Source: Methanosarcinaceae archaeon (GTDB lineage: Archaea > Halobacteriota > Methanosarcinia > Methanosarcinales > Methanosarcinaceae). Taken from it: a DNA stretch of 43,882 nucleotides. The stretch spans positions 1 through 43,882 of the forward strand of contig JAUWQD010000020.1 in assembly GCA_030611265.1 (NCBI GenBank). The letters run 5' to 3'. Below are positions 2,467 to 41,309 of this stretch, in pieces. Below the pieces are notes generated by a model. That model saw only the letters and a list, made by a program, of their open reading frames with translations. It searched no databases and was not told where the DNA came from. A program made the position numbers and the translations under genes. Each line of letters begins with the position of its first letter. Position 1 is the first letter of the stretch.

Positions 2467-3858
2467 TTAATCCGAATGTTTTATTAAAGCGAGATTATTC
2501 TCACAAAGTTTTATGATTCGTGGGTCTTTTATTTTTATACCAATCGCCAGCGCCTGCTCATAATATTCAATCGCTTTTTCGACCTGCTCCAGATGGCTGT
2601 AAGCTGAGCCGAGGTTTCCGAGAATATTTCCTTCTCCGCGCCTATCTCCTATTTCTCTTGAAATAACCAGCGCCTGTTCGTAATATTTAATCGCTTTTTC
2701 GACCTGCCCCAGAGCGCTGTAAGCTGAGCCGAGGTTTCCGAGCCAAGTTCCTTCTCCGCGCCAATCCCTAATTTCTTTTGCAATAATCAGCGCCTGTTCG
2801 TAATATTCAACCGCTTTTTCGACCTGCCCCAGATGGCTGTAAGCTGAGCCAAGGTTTCCGAGACGATTTCCTTCTCCGCGCCTATCTCTTATTTCTCTTG
2901 AAATATCAAGCGCCCGTTCATAATATTCAATCGCTTTTTCAACCTGCCCCAGATGGCTGTAGGCTGAGCCGAGGTTTCCGAGCCAAGTTCCTGCTCCGCG
3001 CCTATCTCCTCTTTGTCTTGAACTATCAAACGCACGTTCATAATATTCAATAGATTTTTCCACTTGCCCCAGAGCGCTGTAGGCGTTACCCAATCGACTA
3101 AGTGAATTGGCAATTCCAATTTTCGTTCCTGCTTTTTCTGAATAAACAAGGGATTGTTCAAAATATTTCAAAGCCTCAGTAGCATAACCTCTAAGAAATT
3201 TGATTGTTCCCAGATTGTAATTCCAATCAGCAAACTTGTATGTATCGTCGATTCCTTTTTCCTGATATTCCCTCAATAACCTCAAATAATTTACTTCTCG
3301 ATCCTCGAGCTGGTTCTTATTCAAAGATACAAGATCCGTATCTCCAAATTCAAGAGTTGGCGTCACCTGCTCCATGTGTTCCATATCGAACTCAAAGACG
3401 GTTGTACGCCATGAAAAGAAATCCTGTGCCTCTTTGAGTATCATTGAAAGAGAAGCACTGTTGATCCAGATTATTATTGGATGCTTGATATTCAGGAAAT
3501 TCTCGCGCATCATGTTTAAAAGAACAAGTGCTTCTGTTTTTCCATCGCTGGTCTTCTTTTCGATTGCCTCATTGAGACCTGATACAAAAAATGCGATTTT
3601 TTTCTCCTTGATCTTTGAACTATAAATATCTGAATTCACAGCATTATTTAAAAGTTGCAGAAGGTTTGTCGATTTTTCATCCATTTCGATATCATAGATA
3701 AAGATCTCATTGTTCACCCGATTTTCAATTTCTGCATGAAGCGCATCACACAAAATTGGCTCATTGCAGCGCACAAAGGCAATAGTCAGGTCATCGGATA
3801 TGGAAAGAAGAGTAATCATCTCATCCAGTTTGGAAAGATGTTCGGGTGTAAACTCCAT
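2467..3858 (-). CDS. TPR protein with an N-terminal degenerate NTPase-like domain
   Basis: 463 aa, cytoplasmic, no signal or membrane segment. Residues about 1-165 form an alpha/beta domain with hydrophobic strands such as KKIAFFVSGL and HPIIIWINSAS but no Walker A motif. It looks like an inactive P-loop or partner domain. After a short linker come six tetratricopeptide repeats of about 40 residues with the core LGNLGSAYSHLGQVEKAIEY. The last four are nearly identical at the DNA level with a 120-bp period. The ATG at 3858 is preferred because AGGT lies about 7 nt upstream; an in-frame TTG at 3864 is the alternative. It follows the ATPase gene by 33 bp on the same strand, so the two are probably one operon. 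The TPRs suggest a protein-binding or sensor role, which is inference. Confidence 0.85.
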   Translation of the reverse strand: MEFTPEHLSKLDEMITLLSISDDLTIAFVRCNEPILCDALHAEIENRVNNEIFIYDIEMDEKSTNLLQLLNNAVNSDIYSSKIKEKKIAFFVSGLNEAIEKKTSDGKTEALVLLNMMRENFLNIKHPIIIWINSASLSMILKEAQDFFSWRTTVFEFDMEHMEQVTPTLEFGDTDLVSLNKNQLEDREVNYLRLLREYQEKGIDDTYKFADWNYNLGTIKFLRGYATEALKYFEQSLVYSEKAGTKIGIANSLSRLGNAYSALGQVEKSIEYYERAFDSSRQRGDRRGAGTWLGNLGSAYSHLGQVEKAIEYYERALDISREIRDRRGEGNRLGNLGSAYSHLGQVEKAVEYYEQALIIAKEIRDWRGEGTWLGNLGSAYSALGQVEKAIKYYEQALVISREIGDRRGEGNILGNLGSAYSHLEQVEKAIEYYEQALAIGIKIKDPRIIKLCENNLALIKHSD

Positions 3859-5853: not shown

Positions 5854-6008
5854 ACGGTAGTTAATCGATAGAGTCTAAAAACTAAGCCTCTTCGCTGTTT
5901 TGAATAGGTAAGGTTTCCGTTATGGTAAATTCATGCCTGTTAATCCCACAAATAATAATCCGACGGAGCAAAACCCTGTGACCAATCCTTTAATTTGATT
6001 GGCAGTGG

Positions 6009-6044
6009 AGCGGAACGCTTCAGCTCAGCGCGTAGCGTACTAAT
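6009..6044. repeat. 36-bp dispersed repeat, copy A
   Basis: 36 bp here are identical to 41150-41185. The block begins AGCGGAACGCTTCAGCTCAG and contains ACGCT and AGCGT arms that can pair. The flanking CAGTGGAGCG is also shared, but copy B has 29 extra bases between the two parts. It is intergenic in both places, so it is probably a small dispersed element or structured RNA segment. Confidence 0.85.
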
Positions 6045-6219
6045 TAACGAATAAATCAGTATCAGTTAAGGCAACCGGTGAAAATACGAAATTAACAATC
6101 TAATGCAAGATCAGAAATTACCCACCAAAACAGCGATGAGCCATAAATGTATTCGTTATTGTTTAATGCACAACCTTACACAAGCAACACAGGGTTGACC
6201 ATACTTCTATTTTCTGTTT

Positions 6220-35536: not shown

Positions 35537-36352
35537 TCACTCATTCTTCATATGAACATCCACCTGCGGATATGGGATTTCCACGCCTTCCTTCTTGAAA
35601 GCCTCAAAAATGCCATTGGTGATCTCGCCTTTGACAGTCCAGTAATCCTCAGTCTTGGCCCATGGCCTGAGCTGGAAGTTTACTGACGAATCTGCAAGTT
35701 CCGTAGTCACGATGCCGGGTGCAGGATCGCTTAACACTAACGGATTGTTCTTCATAAGGTCAAGTGCCACCTGGATCGGCTTGCTCAGGTCGGAATCATA
35801 ACTTACACCAACATTGACATCAACCCTTCTTGTAGGCATTCGTGTAGCATTGACAATAGGACTTCCCCATACCAGTTTATTTGGAATGGTGATGTATTTG
35901 TTGTCAGGGGTAAGCAGTTCGGTTGCCAGAATACCAACCGCAGTAACAGTACCACTTGAACCATTGACCTTCACGTATTCATCTTTGTCAATTGGTCGAA
36001 GACTGGCAATCCAAACCCCTGCAGCCATATTCGAAAGGGAATCCTGCATCCCGAATCCAAGCACCAGTCCCAGAACCGCTGACAGGCTGATCATCATCGA
36101 ACCTACAGCAAATCCAAGTGCTCCTATGAATGCAAGAATTACTACAACATACAATAAAGCAGTCAGGAACCTTGATAAGAACTCAACAATAAGTTCCGGA
36201 AGTTTTGTCTTATTCAGTCCATTCCTGAACATGGAAACTACTATCTTCACTAATATGAATCCTGCAACCAGGACGATCAGTGCAAACAACACTTTAGACA
36301 CAGCCATACTTGTATATGGTATGGTCTGCGACAATATGCTCAAATCAAGCAC
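35537..36352 (-). CDS. Small-conductance mechanosensitive channel (MscS family)
   Basis: 271 aa. Three N-terminal helices, the last being the pore helix LVLGFGMQDSLSNMAAGVWIA, then the beta domain with DEYVKVNGSSGTVTAVGILATELLTPDNKYITIPN and the C-terminal alpha/beta domain. This is the minimal MscS form that releases solutes on hypo-osmotic shock. The start is GTG, with GGAGG about 8 nt upstream. It shares an intergenic region with the divergent ABC permease. Confidence 0.94.
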   Translation of the reverse strand: MLDLSILSQTIPYTSMAVSKVLFALIVLVAGFILVKIVVSMFRNGLNKTKLPELIVEFLSRFLTALLYVVVILAFIGALGFAVGSMMISLSAVLGLVLGFGMQDSLSNMAAGVWIASLRPIDKDEYVKVNGSSGTVTAVGILATELLTPDNKYITIPNKLVWGSPIVNATRMPTRRVDVNVGVSYDSDLSKPIQVALDLMKNNPLVLSDPAPGIVTTELADSSVNFQLRPWAKTEDYWTVKGEITNGIFEAFKKEGVEIPYPQVDVHMKNE

Positions 36353-36423
36353 TTAACAACCTCCTATTTCAAATTCAAAATTTACAATTAAGAATTAATA
36401 AGATTGACATCATAATAAATATT

Positions 36424-38232
36424 ATGGCTGGCTGGGTTACGATAGCAAAGTGGGAGTTCTTCCGCTCAAAATTGAAATTCGACGCACGTTCATTGATATT
36501 GTTATCCGCATCCCTGCTATTTTTGATTGCCGCATCATATTTTGCGGCGCAGACCGGCATGAACATGAATAACGACATGTATCGTGTGGCACTGACCAAT
36601 CCTGCTCTTGAACCTGTACTTGGTATTGACCAGAGGTTCAATGTCATGACCGTTGACGTGAATACGGCAAGTAACATGTATGTAGACGATGCCGACCTTG
36701 TGATCATCGACCCGAATGTATTCAGGGCGGATACACAAAAATCTGCGTCCGCTTCCGAAGCATTGAAAAGTACACTGAAAAATTATCGTGAAGGCGTTCT
36801 CACTTCCTATAACGACATCAACAACTCCCATCCGGTATGGATAACAGTACACTACCTCGAACGCCCTGAGGCTTTTCAGGTATTGAGCGGTGAGCGCCGG
36901 ACGGCTGCAGAGGAAGAAACTGTAACTACTCAGTTGAGCCAGGAAGAGGTCGAAGCCGCTGCAACCGGAAGACCGGCAGGAGAAGTTGGAGCCGAAGCCA
37001 CACCATCACCACCGCAAACAGCGGAAGAATTCCAGGCTATACAGAGACATAACCTGTTCGAAAAACAGACAATTGCAACCCCGTCCCATTTTGCACCACC
37101 GATCCCGTTCACAGCGATACTGTACTCATTCATGTTCATTTTCCCGATATATTTCGTATCCCAATTCTACTCATCCAGTATCATGGATGAACGTACAAAC
37201 AAAAAGTGTGAACTCGTACTTGTCGCACCACTTCGCGGTGCGGATATCGTGATCGGCAAAACCGTACCCTACATCCTTGCCACAATGGTGATCATAGCCA
37301 TTGTCACCACCTATATCAAGGGACTGCCCACTGACATCGTGACGATCAAAAGCAGTTTGTTGATACTTGCAACTATGTTCCCGATCGTGTTACTGTTTTT
37401 CGCATTCTCATTCATCTCCGCGATCCTGTCACGGAGTTTCAAGGAACTCACCTTTGCGATGGTCTTTTTGTCAGTTGTAGTATCAGGATATTTGTTCTTC
37501 CCTGCCATGTTCGCAAACGTACATGCAATAAGTACCATCTCACCAATGACACTTATTGTACTGCTCATTGAAGGCGAAACAATCAACATGAGTGAATATA
37601 TTTTCTCAACCCTGCCATTTTACTTTGTAGGACTTTCAGTCTACGTTTTTGGCACTTACATCTTCAGGGAAGAGGATCTGTTTACCCAAAAACCAATAAC
37701 GCAAAAACTTCTGGATTGCGTTGAGATTTTCATGTCAAAACCTTATGGTTCGGTATTCCTGCTGAGTATTATCTTCATTCCCTTCGTTTACATGGCTCAG
37801 TTGATGCTGATAGTCATGCTTTTTAACCTGCCTTTGCCCTACTCCGTCATTGTGATGATCGTGCTTGCCGCACTGATCGAAGAACTTGTAAAATCGATTG
37901 GCATATACACCCTGTTCAAGAGAAAAATGGTCTCACCCACCCTGAAAAATGCCGCCACACTTGCCATACTGGCAGGTGCGGGGTTTTTTGCAGGCGAGAA
38001 GTTACTGGTTATCATAACACTGGCTCCGATCGCCACATCGGTTTTCGGTTCTGTCATGACTATGGGTACATTGTTACTCATACCGCTTATGGTGCACATC
38101 ACAGGCGTGATGGTCGTATCACTTGGAATGTACGCCATCAGTCCCAGATGGTACCTGCCTTTTGTTTTGTTTGCAAGTATCCTGCATGGGTTATACAATT
38201 TATTCATCCTGAGGGGGATTCTGTTTGGCTAA
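36424..38232 (+). CDS. ABC-2 permease fused to a PrsW/CPBP-like membrane protease domain
   Basis: 602 aa. Residues about 1-400 are an ABC-2 permease: helix LILLSASLLFLIAASYF, an extracellular loop to about 210 with a low-complexity Glu/Ala/Pro stretch, then five helices with YSSSIMDERTNKKCELVLVAPLRGADIVIGK, the usual ABC-2 block. Residues about 440-602 add helices carrying intramembrane glutamic-protease motifs: EELVK at 486-490, FFAGE at 521-525, H558 and HGLYN at 588-592. That matches the PrsW/CPBP pattern (EExxK, FxxxE, H, HxxxN). Such proteases cut regulators or prenylated peptides. The ATG at 36424 begins the permease; upstream codons look non-coding. The stop overlaps the next gene by 8 bp. 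Confidence 0.88.
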   Translation: MAGWVTIAKWEFFRSKLKFDARSLILLSASLLFLIAASYFAAQTGMNMNNDMYRVALTNPALEPVLGIDQRFNVMTVDVNTASNMYVDDADLVIIDPNVFRADTQKSASASEALKSTLKNYREGVLTSYNDINNSHPVWITVHYLERPEAFQVLSGERRTAAEEETVTTQLSQEEVEAAATGRPAGEVGAEATPSPPQTAEEFQAIQRHNLFEKQTIATPSHFAPPIPFTAILYSFMFIFPIYFVSQFYSSSIMDERTNKKCELVLVAPLRGADIVIGKTVPYILATMVIIAIVTTYIKGLPTDIVTIKSSLLILATMFPIVLLFFAFSFISAILSRSFKELTFAMVFLSVVVSGYLFFPAMFANVHAISTISPMTLIVLLIEGETINMSEYIFSTLPFYFVGLSVYVFGTYIFREEDLFTQKPITQKLLDCVEIFMSKPYGSVFLLSIIFIPFVYMAQLMLIVMLFNLPLPYSVIVMIVLAALIEELVKSIGIYTLFKRKMVSPTLKNAATLAILAGAGFFAGEKLLVIITLAPIATSVFGSVMTMGTLLLIPLMVHITGVMVVSLGMYAISPRWYLPFVLFASILHGLYNLFILRGILFG

Positions 38233-39325
38233 ACAAAAATCCAATATGACGCTGTCACCCCGCATTGTGATGCTTATTGCAAAAAAGGAATACCGCGAGG
38301 TCATGCATGAGAGAACATTCATTCTTTCGGTGTTGATCCAGTTATTCATTGCATCGTTCTCCACATTCCTCGTTATCGGGTTAACATCATTCTACGACCC
38401 GACAGCCCTTGGTGAACTTGATATGGGAAGTACGAAGATCGCTGTTGTTGGCAGTGATGAGAGTGAATTGTACCTGTTGCTGCAAAATAGTGATCTTGCC
38501 CCGATCTTGTATGGCGGGTTCTCTGATGCATATACTGCATTCTATGATCGCAAGGTCGATGCTATCCTGATAATCCCTGATGAACCACCTGACGGATACG
38601 AAACTTTGGATATTGATATCTATCTACCCAGATCTGACCTTAAGGCAACACTTGTTTCTTTGCAACTGAAAGAACCACTTGAGAAGTTTGAGCAGAGCGT
38701 GCGTGACATCAGGACAAAACGACTTTCGGGATATACCCCCCTGAATCTCAATATTGTCGAAAGACCGACAAAGACTTCGTCAACGTATTTTGAGTTCTTG
38801 TATGTCGCACTACTTCCACTGCTGGTGTTCACCCCTGCTTTCATATCAGGCGGTCTTGTTGTCGATTTTATTACAGAGGAGTTTGAGCGCAAAACTCTTG
38901 ACCTTTTGCTGGTCTCGCCTATATCGTTGCTTGATGTGGTTAGCGGAAAAGTGCTGCTCGCCACAATTATCGCACCTGTTCAGGCGTTCACATGGATACT
39001 GCTGTTGATGATGAACGGGATTATGATACACAATGTTATTACGATACTGTTCCTTGTTCTGGTCACTGCAATGATACTTGTCACTTTCAGCGGCATTATA
39101 TCGGTCATGTTCAAAGAACGCGGAATGGCACAGTTATTCTATTCACTGGTATTGATCTTCCTGTTCATGATCTCATATCTTTTCACAAATTCCCCAATGA
39201 ATCTTGTTACTCGCCTCTCCATCCAGAGCATCGGAGGTTTGGAAACTGTGATATGGCTTGGAGGGTACTCACTTTTGGCTGTGGTTCTGTATGGAGGGTT
39301 GCTCAGGGTTGTGGAAGGTGAGTGA
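38225..39325 (+). CDS. ABC-2 type permease (NatB-like)
   Basis: 366 aa. One N-terminal helix (FILSVLIQLFIASFSTFLVI), an external domain to about 190 and five helices with FITEEFERKTLDLLLVSPISLLDVVSGKVL, the ABC-2 signature region. It should pair with the fused permease and the NatA-like ATPase as an exporter. The start is TTG, with GAGGGGG 6-8 nt upstream inside the previous gene. The last 51 codons and 60 bp of 3' flank are repeated at 40806-41022 with about 90% identity, so the 3' end of this gene is a recombination or integration point. Confidence 0.92.
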   Translation: MAKQKSNMTLSPRIVMLIAKKEYREVMHERTFILSVLIQLFIASFSTFLVIGLTSFYDPTALGELDMGSTKIAVVGSDESELYLLLQNSDLAPILYGGFSDAYTAFYDRKVDAILIIPDEPPDGYETLDIDIYLPRSDLKATLVSLQLKEPLEKFEQSVRDIRTKRLSGYTPLNLNIVERPTKTSSTYFEFLYVALLPLLVFTPAFISGGLVVDFITEEFERKTLDLLLVSPISLLDVVSGKVLLATIIAPVQAFTWILLLMMNGIMIHNVITILFLVLVTAMILVTFSGIISVMFKERGMAQLFYSLVLIFLFMISYLFTNSPMNLVTRLSIQSIGGLETVIWLGGYSLLAVVLYGGLLRVVEGE

Positions 39326-39385
39326 AATAGTTGGAAGGATAATTATTGTTATAAATCGTGCATGATAGGAAATTGTGTTGCTTTT
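39169..39385 (+). repeat. 217-bp direct repeat, copy 1 (3' end of permease gene)
   Basis: 217 bp aligned without gaps to 40806-41022, with 22 differences by hand count. 18 fall in the coding part and 4 just after the stop; the last 45 bp (39341-39385) are identical. The repeat covers the last 51 codons, the stop and 60 bp of flank. Confidence 0.92.
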
Positions 39386-39449
39386 GATTGATTCTATGTT
39401 AAGTCCTGAATTATCCCTCACTAGTATCATTTATTGAGGTTTCTTGTAG

Positions 39450-39571
39450 TATACAATTTATAGAATTGTATAGTGCGAGTAAATCTAAGCGTCAGCGAAG
39501 ATTTTCTCGTAGTATATAATTTATAGAATTATATAGTTTGAGTTAAATCGACCGAAGGGAGATTTTTCTCA
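39450..39571. repeat. Duplicated hairpin unit with compensatory changes
   Basis: Two 63-bp units. Each has an AT-rich hairpin: TATACAATT/AATTGTATA around TATAG at 39450-39472, and TATATAATT/AATTATATA around the same TATAG loop at 39513-39535. One C-G pair in the first is T-A in the second. Each is followed by a second hairpin: CGAG-T-AAATCT with AGATTT-T-CTCG (39476-39509) and a looser TGAG/AAATC with GATTT/CTCA (39539-39571), the last overlapping the BRO stop codon. Paired changes in both arms indicate selection for structure. Confidence 0.8.
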
Positions 39572-40414
39572 ATCAAACTGAATTTGTTTCTTCCTTATTT
39601 GCGCCTCGGGCAATTCATTATAATTGGTTTTTGTTGATACTTTTGTTCCTGATTTTTCTTCGAGCTCTTTTCTGGCGTTTCCTGCAATGGTTCCGCCTTC
39701 ATTAGCAGCTTTTTTATTTTCAGGATATCCTTTTGCATCTTTCTTTTTTGCAATTTCTGTCGTTGATGCTTCGCCCAGCATAGTGAAAATCAGTTCGAGG
39801 TCGGTCATGTGATCGCGCAGGTTGTCTTTTGGTTTATCAAGCGCTTTAAAATTTTTATATTCAGAGGGAGTCATGCCGAATGTCGCTTTACTAATTTCAG
39901 CTGTCAATATAGCATACTCCAAATGTTCTTTCACGCCTCTTTTCTTCCATTCTTCAGTTAGTTCATCACGAACAGCGATACCTCTTGCTCTCTTTTCAAT
40001 CCATTCGTCTGAATAGCCCTTTTGTTTGTAGATCTCACGCATACGCTTTGTTGCGAGTTCCGGATTTTCGATCTCTTCAAGCCGCTCATAACCGACCTTT
40101 GCAAGCCAGCGTTTGAAAGGTTCCGCCTTGGGAGATGGGACAGATTGAATTATTCGCAAAAGACCTTCGGTATTGGCAACATCAGTATTATAAAATTTGC
40201 CATCAGCCGACTGTATTTTCAGTTGACTACAAATTGTAGTCAACTCGCAGTCATTCTTTTTAAGTCTGGTTTTAAGTACACTCCAATATTTTCTCGGGTT
40301 TGGACTGTCCGACAAAATCTCAATTACATCCACAATAGAAAAATACCATTTCTGGTTGTTTTCGTCCCATGCCCTACGGACTTTTTTATCCTGAAATAAA
40401 ATTAATTCATTCAT
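39569..40414 (-). CDS. BRO-N / DinD-like (prophage antirepressor family) protein
   Basis: 281 aa. The N-terminal about 110 residues are a BRO-N domain: KKVRRAWDENNQKWYFSIVD, then VIEILSDSPNPRKYWSVLK, then DVANTEGLLRIIQSVPSPKA. The rest (VGYERLEEIENPELATKRMR, and DELTEEWKKRG) is the helical partner domain seen in the longer archaeal/bacterial Bro-N proteins annotated DinD-like. These occur in viruses, prophages and mobile islands and bind DNA. GAGGT lies about 7 nt before the ATG, inside a 34-aa ORF whose TGA overlaps that ATG. The gene sits between two 217-bp direct repeats of the neighbouring permease gene, so it was probably brought in by a mobile element. Confidence 0.88.
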   Translation of the reverse strand: MNELILFQDKKVRRAWDENNQKWYFSIVDVIEILSDSPNPRKYWSVLKTRLKKNDCELTTICSQLKIQSADGKFYNTDVANTEGLLRIIQSVPSPKAEPFKRWLAKVGYERLEEIENPELATKRMREIYKQKGYSDEWIEKRARGIAVRDELTEEWKKRGVKEHLEYAILTAEISKATFGMTPSEYKNFKALDKPKDNLRDHMTDLELIFTMLGEASTTEIAKKKDAKGYPENKKAANEGGTIAGNARKELEEKSGTKVSTKTNYNELPEAQIRKKQIQFD

Positions 40415-40515
40415 ACGGAGACCTCTATAAGTTTTCCTTCAAATCCTTTTGCAGGATTGATTTTTATTGGTTTCGGCGGAAAGGTTGTCGAGTTTGCAGA
40501 TGAGCCGTTTTTCAT
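40411..40515 (-). CDS. Small 34-aa ORF coupled to the BRO-N gene
   Basis: 34 codons (begins MKNGSSANSTTFPPKPIKIN and ends LIEVSV). Its TGA overlaps the BRO ATG by four bases (ATGA), the usual sign of translational coupling. It carries the BRO SD inside its last codons. No SD is seen for itself. Proline-rich and unrecognised; it could be a small partner protein. Confidence 0.4.
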   Translation of the reverse strand: MKNGSSANSTTFPPKPIKINPAKGFEGKLIEVSV

Positions 40516-40776
40516 TTAATTTTTCTTAAACATAATTGTTTTTTTTGTATATATATCAAAGCCAAGCGGTGTGAAAGTGTTTGTCAACCTATAAAAAAAT
40601 CCACTGCATGTAATATTTGCTTGAAGGGCGGACGGCGCTTTCCAACATCCAGTTATTCCAAAAAGATCAAGGGGACTAAACGTCATCCACTCTAAACATA
40701 CCGTGTTGGTGAGTACAAGGTAATTCTGGACATACTTGACAATCGTCTTTTGATCATAGTTGTGGAAACGGAGCAT
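40516..40776 (-). CDS. Open frame of 86 codons, unrecognised
   Basis: The frame reads MLRFHNYDQKTIVKYVQNYL and later KAPSALQANITCSGFFY. It stays open upstream for about eleven more codons (PLIFPVYLAS) before a stop. No SD and no family match. It may be a decayed gene carried by the inserted segment, or chance. Confidence 0.25.
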   Translation of the reverse strand: MLRFHNYDQKTIVKYVQNYLVLTNTVCLEWMTFSPLDLFGITGCWKAPSALQANITCSGFFYRLTNTFTPLGFDIYTKKTIMFKKN

Positions 40777-40805
40777 CGAAGCAAGATATACCGGAAATAT
40801 TAATG

Positions 40806-41022
40806 GATCTCATATCTATTCACAAATTCCCCAATGAACCTTGTTACACGTCTCTCTATTCAGAGCATCGGGGGTCTGGAAACAGTGATATGGCTTGGGG
40901 GGTATTCGCTTTTAGCTGTGGTTTTGTATGGCGGGTTGCTTAAGGTTGTGGAAGGGGAGTGAGATAGTTGAAAGAAAAATTATTGTTATAAATCGTGCAT
41001 GATAGGAAATTGTGTTGCTTTT
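40806..41022 (+). repeat. 217-bp direct repeat, copy 2
   Basis: Partner of 39169-39385, same length with no gaps. The final 45 bp (40978-41022) are identical between copies. Beyond 41022 the two sequences are unrelated, which sets one edge of the inserted or duplicated segment. Confidence 0.92.
40807..40962 (+). pseudogene. 3' remnant of an ABC-2 permease gene
   Basis: 51 in-frame codons plus stop, encoding ISYLFTNSPMNLVTRLSI and ending GGLLKVVEGE. Against the intact gene, 17 of 18 nucleotide changes are silent and one gives Arg to Lys. There is no start or SD. This copy diverged while still under protein-level selection, and only later lost its 5' part. Confidence 0.88.
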
Positions 41023-41091
41023 AATGTATTTTTGATATTTCGTGTGAGTGAGTAATTTCTCAGTCAATAGTTCCTGTGATATTATATCCAT
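41023..41091 (-). pseudogene. Possible 5' end of a truncated gene
   Basis: ATG at 41091 has GAGG 7 nt upstream and opens codons with a protein-like pattern (MDIISQELLTEKLLTHTKY). The frame then runs antisense into the permease remnant at 41022, where it is no longer plausible. It may be a gene whose remainder was removed at the insertion edge. Confidence 0.25.
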
Positions 41092-41126
41092 GCTCAATCC
41101 TCTTATTTCGTCAGCAGTGGAGCGAA

Positions 41127-41146
41127 GGACACCCTCGCTGGTGTCC
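41127..41146. terminator. Hairpin within dispersed-repeat copy B region
   Basis: GGACACC and GGTGTCC form a 7-bp stem around CTCGCT. It lies inside the 29 bp present here but absent from the related sequence at 6003-6044. Confidence 0.5.
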
Positions 41147-41149
41147 GAG

Positions 41150-41185
41150 AGCGGAACGCTTCAGCTCAGCGCGTAGCGTACTAAT
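41150..41185. repeat. 36-bp dispersed repeat, copy B
   Basis: Identical over 36 bp to 6009-6044. The preceding shared CAGTGGAGCG lies at 41115-41124, separated here by the hairpin-forming insertion. Confidence 0.85.
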
Positions 41186-41205
41186 GAACAGATAAGTAGA
41201 ATCAA

Positions 41206-41255
41206 TTCGATATTTACGAGGGAGTCCCCCTCCCTCGTAAGTTAATCTAATCGAA
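41206..41255. terminator. Long stem-loop downstream of the dehydrogenase gene
   Basis: TTACGAGGGAG (41214-41224) and CTCCCTCGTAA (41230-41240) form a perfect 11-bp stem around TCCCC. TTCGAT and ATCGAA form an outer stem. It lies about 55 bp past the stop of the minus-strand dehydrogenase gene and probably terminates its transcript. Confidence 0.65.
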
Positions 41256-41272
41256 AGGTATAATAGTACGTT

Positions 41273-41294
41273 AATCCAAGCGGTAGCGCGGATT
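41273..41294. repeat. Third member of the AAGCG-loop hairpin family
   Basis: AATCC/GGATT stem around loop AAGCGGTAGCGC. The hairpin at 39481-39504 has AAATCT/AGATTT around AAGCGTCAGCGA. Loop pattern AAGCG-nn-AGCG is kept and the stem changes in a paired way. It lies just after the dehydrogenase stop (41310). Confidence 0.65.
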
Positions 41295-41309
41295 TTCTTG
41301 TTTTTTATT

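Follow-up and report, generated by a model that had tools for sequence, protein, structure and literature searches.

Diverged copies of a permease gene end around a BRO-N gene in an ANME-3 archaeon: a possible recombination scar shared with other gene-end arrays of the genus

The window, that is the whole stretch of DNA analysed here (43,882 nucleotides), corresponds to contig C17 in the 2.86-Mb genome (G000) of an ANME-3 archaeon (Ca. Methanovorans). The comparison set comprised this genome and six other genomes of the genus; one relative, G001, has its permease on a contig (G001:C65, DQIO01000178) that belongs to HMMV2, which is also ANME-3. The host gene at the locus is an intact ABC-2 permease of 366 amino acids on the forward strand (38225..39325; PF12698, E 6.4e-22), with 91-95% amino acid identity to its counterparts in G001, G002 and G005. 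It is preceded on the same strand by an open reading frame for its partner, an ABC-2-like membrane protein (36310..38232) that matches PF12698 weakly, under the curated cut-off. Direct-repeat comparison and BLAST showed that the 3' end of the permease gene with 63 bp beyond its stop codon (copy 1, 39169..39388, forward strand) is present a second time at 40806..41025, again on the forward strand, as a 5'-truncated gene end of 52 open codons followed by 63 bp (copy 2). The copies are separated by about 1.42 kb, in which, as the earlier note on this DNA had described, a BRO-N gene is located.

The BRO-N protein (281 amino acids, 39569..40414, reverse strand; PF02498, E 5.5e-13) belongs to the PADLOC candidate defence family PDC-S13 (E 2.9e-126), and its C-terminal half is weakly DinD-like (NF008573, E 1.4e-4, far under the cut-off). 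Two palindromic repeat units that are dispersed in the genus lie at the 3' side of the gene (39440..39570), and its upstream region (40472..40661) is common to other BRO-N loci in G000, G002, G003 and G005. The BRO-N DNA (39572-40465) is 90% identical to a locus of G056 (L058 5867-6763), from another family of the order, and this level of DNA identity suggests a recent transfer of BRO-N between families. The last ~150 bp of the insert hold a feature that the earlier note had missed, the 3' half of a relE/parE toxin gene (40655..40805, forward strand) ending in YRKY and a stop codon. This stop codon directly adjoins copy 2, and the resulting relE/permease joint, TAATGGATCTC (40803..40810, forward strand), contains a possible 4-bp microhomology, ATGA. 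On the other side copy 2 runs into a dispersed non-coding repeat of ~280 bp (41019..41300), whose left end is the right edge of the copy (about 41017-41030). This dispersed repeat is found on several contigs of the genus and part of it recurs at 6008-6067 of the window. Repeats of other kinds, a 26-bp tandem repeat at the contig start and four repeats spaced 120 bp apart, are also present (1-130 and 2531-3130).

The two permease ends align by BLAST over 220 bp at 90% identity with ~22 differences, in agreement with the earlier count, and a direct-repeat search gave bounds of 39169-39393 and 40806-41030 (225 nt, 89%). A repeat of this length and identity far exceeds chance. The 157 coding nucleotides that run from GATCTC up to the stop codon differ at 18 positions; 17 of these changes are synonymous and one is Arg/Lys, as had been reported. 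The final 45 bp of the repeat are the same in both copies, an observation that also holds, and the earlier note had taken them for a recombination core. However, the edges at five loci share no core, and the similarity of the copies ends where it does because the dispersed ~280-bp repeat starts there, so that a 45-bp core is unnecessary. Copy 2 differs from its own host copy at 18 of 157 positions, as compared to 15 and 21 of 157 for permeases of other species. The earlier conclusion, that selection acted while the copies diverged and that no recent insertion made them identical, is thus borne out by the 17:1 excess of silent changes and the interspecies-level distance, and it follows that a foreign or exchanged tail is needed.

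The insert is not private to the genome of the window. The relE/permease joint is present in three relatives, G001, G003 and G004, and all the permease copies linked to relE start at one identical base; therefore the joint arose once and was then spread or inherited. In G001 and G004 the joint is preceded by an intact RelBE-like pair (toxin PF05016, E 4.4e-10; antitoxin DUF7557). The array of these two genomes runs from a permease end through STAND, relBE, a second permease end (B), BRO-N and a relE remnant to a terminal permease end, so that the order of BRO-N, relE remnant and permease end is the same as in the window. Its STAND protein has 985 amino acids and is Avs2-like in PADLOC, and in G001 the terminal permease end is followed by a surface protein. 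G003 has relBE and then a decayed permease end. A single permease end is found in G005, with unrelated sequence behind it, and in G002, where a BroN fragment follows; both are without the right flank of the window. G001:C48 carries a longer permease fragment with an internal deletion. None of the relatives has the window's permease-IMDH site in its exact single-copy form, and therefore the event in the window cannot be polarised and the order of events there is one that we infer. It should be noted here that G001:C63 and G004:C20 are short contigs from two MAGs with 99.95% identity, and since both MAGs are probably from one mud volcano mis-binning is possible. The ends of G004:C20 (L052 1-6044) overlap exactly over 99 bp; the contig may be a circle of 5945 bp, a tandem repeat, or an assembly that stopped at a repeat. 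A search for the permease tail in viral contigs found none.

Permease ends at the outer border and within the arrays have changed in different ways. A fragment without its 5' part would be expected to decay. Copy 2, compared with the terminal copy of G001, shows 11 silent changes and one replacement, for which P is about 7e-6 if the tails were neutral (expected replacement fraction 0.72). In the internal copy B, by comparison with the same terminal copy, 10 of 14 changes are replacements and the frame carries a stop, as expected from neutral decay. The terminal tails are clean, and therefore they were until recently part of a working gene or have been replaced from one. They could have been refreshed by homologous exchange in which other cells supplied the permease gene. 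The host permease was examined for a mosaic break by which the native tail could be recognised, and it showed none.

Similar scars exist at other genes. About 1.15 Mb of the genus was searched, as a set of stretches rather than a census, for direct repeats that pair the end of a real gene with a copy lacking the 5' part, and the matches were read by eye. Gene-end duplications were found at six further genes, namely trmG10, mptE, an Fe-S gene, a PAPS-reductase gene, a GSDH gene and ligD, with toxin-antitoxin, BroN, surface-protein or unknown genes as cargo. The cargo of the gene-end arrays is largely toxin-antitoxin or candidate defence genes. No gene-end duplication was confirmed in 400 kb of control sequence from two other Methanosarcinaceae genomes. 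In G000 a 96-bp duplication (98% identity) of an Fe-S (CCG) gene end surrounds an ORF of 140 amino acids, and in G005 the end of a PAPS-reductase-like gene of 652 amino acids is duplicated over 347 bp (86%) around a gene whose sequence places it with the MNT-type nucleotidyltransferases. The 3' end of mptE in G005 (L086 5360-10097; G005:C44:51359-56096) is duplicated over 373 bp (86%) around secreted-protein genes; on either side of this cargo, and in permuted order, stand a permease tail of 24 nt and a fragment from the middle of the permease, and AGGG lies at the joint between a permease fragment and mptE. Permease-end DNA has here moved to another locus. Larger arrays occur at the other two genes. 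Three copies of a GSDH-like gene 3' end (G000:C79:1-8000, L060) have BRO-N, DUF1016/YhcG and DUF4143/DUF234 ATPase genes between or beside them, assigned in PADLOC to PDC-S02, S01 and S27. About eight copies or fragments of LigD_N (G003:C23, L059 / L163) are separated by about one module each, comprising relBE, BRO-N, HicAB and MNT-HEPN. Several candidates were discarded, which were antisense ORFs over a dispersed repeat (G016 L168), signal-kinase paralogs (L105), promoter-like 5' repeats (L107/L196) and automatic matches inside long repetitive proteins; G016 L169 and G000 L110 were excluded from the counts. Duplications of the same kind at 5' ends were not confirmed in this sample, which is too small to claim a direction.

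At trmG10 the order of events can be read from the relatives. In G005 (L120 9699-11869; G005:C11:89699-91869) the 3' end of the gene is duplicated over 353 bp at 100% identity around VapBC and an ORF of 83 amino acids. G001 has the same VapBC cargo, and G002 has the outer parts of the cargo, both without a second trmG10 end; therefore the duplication is a later and separate event with one microhomology joint. The point at which G005 departs from the G001/G002 sequence is AAAGAT, a hexamer that both parents contain; from there the G005 sequence continues in the last 353 bp of trmG10 and, 36 bp further on, reaches truA. Among the relatives, none was seen to have an allele in which trmG10 lies next to truA. 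Within the cargo of G001 and G005, ~55-bp repeats of the 3' end of the upstream ORF enclose VapBC, and at this position G002 has one ~55-bp copy with both flanks, a state that an empty site and a loop-out would explain equally well.

We lean, with some reserve, towards the explanation that these structures result from recombination between cargo-bearing and other alleles, joined by homology on one side and by microhomology on the other in the manner of homology-facilitated illegitimate recombination (HFIR), and followed by refreshment of the tail through homologous exchange. Small defence or toxin-antitoxin modules, relBE and later BroN, would settle directly behind the stop codon of the permease. 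Incoming DNA of another lineage would then be joined on one side by homology and on the other by a microhomology of a few bases. HFIR, or an equivalent template switch, would thereby fuse a headless permease tail behind relE, and the full gene would be kept. The outermost tail may be kept clean through repeated replacement from permease genes of other cells, tails trapped within the array would decay, and repeated events could build arrays in which gene ends stand between the defence modules. Microhomology of 4-6 bp occurs at the three joints that can be checked, AAAGAT at trmG10, AGGG at mptE and possibly ATGA between relE and the permease; the last joint may rest on ATGA if the old sequence downstream of relE resembled L026, a presumed parent from another family of the order. 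GATC at the starts of the permease and trmG10 joints was considered as a restriction-type cut, and the idea was dropped, the other loci being without it. HFIR alone does not explain the near-precision at the stop codon (+1 at trmG10, +2 at the Fe-S gene, within a few bases at several permease junctions), and selection for an intact gene may account for it. Such exchange would presuppose DNA uptake by ANME-3, a group of which no pure-culture isolate is known.

It has been proposed in the earlier note that an element carrying its own version of the 3' end of the target gene entered the locus. The part of this proposal that stands is the foreign or exchanged tail, but the evidence does not favour a site-specific element built on a 45-bp core. 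As the note had stated, no integrase is visible, and this is true of the window and of every array; searches with PF00589 and PF00239 gave no match in G001, G004 and G005, although MAGs can miss genes. In G000, PF00589 matches four times (C32, C66) and PF00239 once (C32), in no case on the contig of the window. Three tyrosine-recombinase matches and one serine-recombinase match are clustered at G000:C32:27707-41216. The direct repeats at a gene 3' end, the divergent tail that preserves the gene and the 45 identical bp past the stop codon are what the remnant of an integrative element with its own integrase would leave. Elements carrying the 3' end of their target gene are known from e14 and phage 21 in icd, where a divergent gene 3' end likewise stands at one border and the intact gene at the other; these have an integrase and a fixed core, neither of which was found at the permease locus. 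Moreover, similarity among the permease copies ends no more than a few bases from the stop codon, the edges differ between loci, the right edge in the window is set by a dispersed repeat, and cargo and duplication are separable at trmG10. An integrase is not required for the structure, and we regard such a remnant as improbable. Much the same low probability is given to an integrase-free cassette system, in which circles of defence or toxin-antitoxin cargo and one gene end recombine homologously with the gene ends of ANME-3, so that 3' ends act as exchangeable sites and the host gene receives a new functional tail with every entry, an arrangement like that of integrons but with neither integrase nor attC. 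Such a system would account for the ligD array with about one toxin-antitoxin or BroN module between successive copies, for the exact end overlap of G004:C20 and for the permuted permease parts around the mptE cargo. However, an assembler also leaves a 99-bp overlap at a repeat, fragment lengths and edges differ, mobility genes are absent, and the decayed internal copies argue against frequent cycling. The arrays do not classify as integrons, since their repeats are gene ends and the search of G001, G004 and G005 gave no tyrosine recombinase.

Insertion with long target duplication has somewhat more in its favour, most of all for VapBC, and is still unlikely. It predicts the architecture that was found, a module between long direct repeats of its target, and the ~55-bp repeats around VapBC in G001 and G005 facing a single copy in G002 fit it. 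On the other hand the G002 site could equally have arisen by loop-out, the copies in the window with their 17:1 silent changes were not born by insertion, and the 353-bp duplication at trmG10 arose after the cargo. The alternative offered by the earlier note, a tandem duplication of the permease (or of the gene end with its neighbour) followed by deletion, is possible in principle for any single locus, and the internally deleted fragment of G001:C48 would suit it. Two full permease genes were found in none of the seven genomes of the genus, the truncated copies behind relE share one joint, and copy 2 has the divergence seen between species, all of which make it very improbable.

Recombination between alleles, if this account is correct, has left in an uncultured methane-oxidising archaeon a readable record of small defence and toxin-antitoxin islands growing behind housekeeping genes without transposases or integrases. 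Clean and decayed gene tails may make strain-to-strain gene exchange visible from sequence alone, and the spread of toxin-antitoxin modules without mobility genes becomes testable with population long reads. In the literature searched, mostly without subscription journals, no description of such arrays in archaea was found.

Comparable structures have been described in bacteria. Restriction-modification genes insert with long target duplication, as far as the work of Nobusato et al. (2000) is represented in PMC3874152 and PMC3031569. To the extent of those accounts, the likeness lies in a selfish or defence module that is able to amplify and is placed between long target repeats of variable length, in the order of 100 bp; the arrays of ANME-3 differ in that they have no restriction-modification genes, the copies in the window are diverged alleles and the trmG10 duplication is later than the cargo. 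In H. pylori ELS37 a duplication at R.PabI has been ascribed to a gene-conversion-like event with incoming DNA (PMC4615327), and there one junction is homologous and the other non-homologous, with duplication on both sides of the insert, as would be the case in the explanation favoured here. That case is a single event beside an ICE, whereas in the ANME-3 genus the process is recurrent at many genes and builds arrays. HFIR has been proposed for the orphan-immunity arrays of the V. cholerae T6SS, Rhs orphan 3' regions and displaced gene 3' ends (PMC5361080), and a mechanism of this type has been given for illegitimate exchange generally (PMC2884548). As in the V. cholerae arrays, successive acquisitions would displace an older gene 3' end together with its module downstream, one side would be homologous and the other illegitimate, and the result looks integron-like without an integrase (PMC5361080). 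Unlike in V. cholerae, the duplicated ends come from unrelated housekeeping genes, which lie outside the cargo and are kept intact, the cargo is mostly toxin-antitoxin, BroN and STAND genes, and the host is an archaeon.
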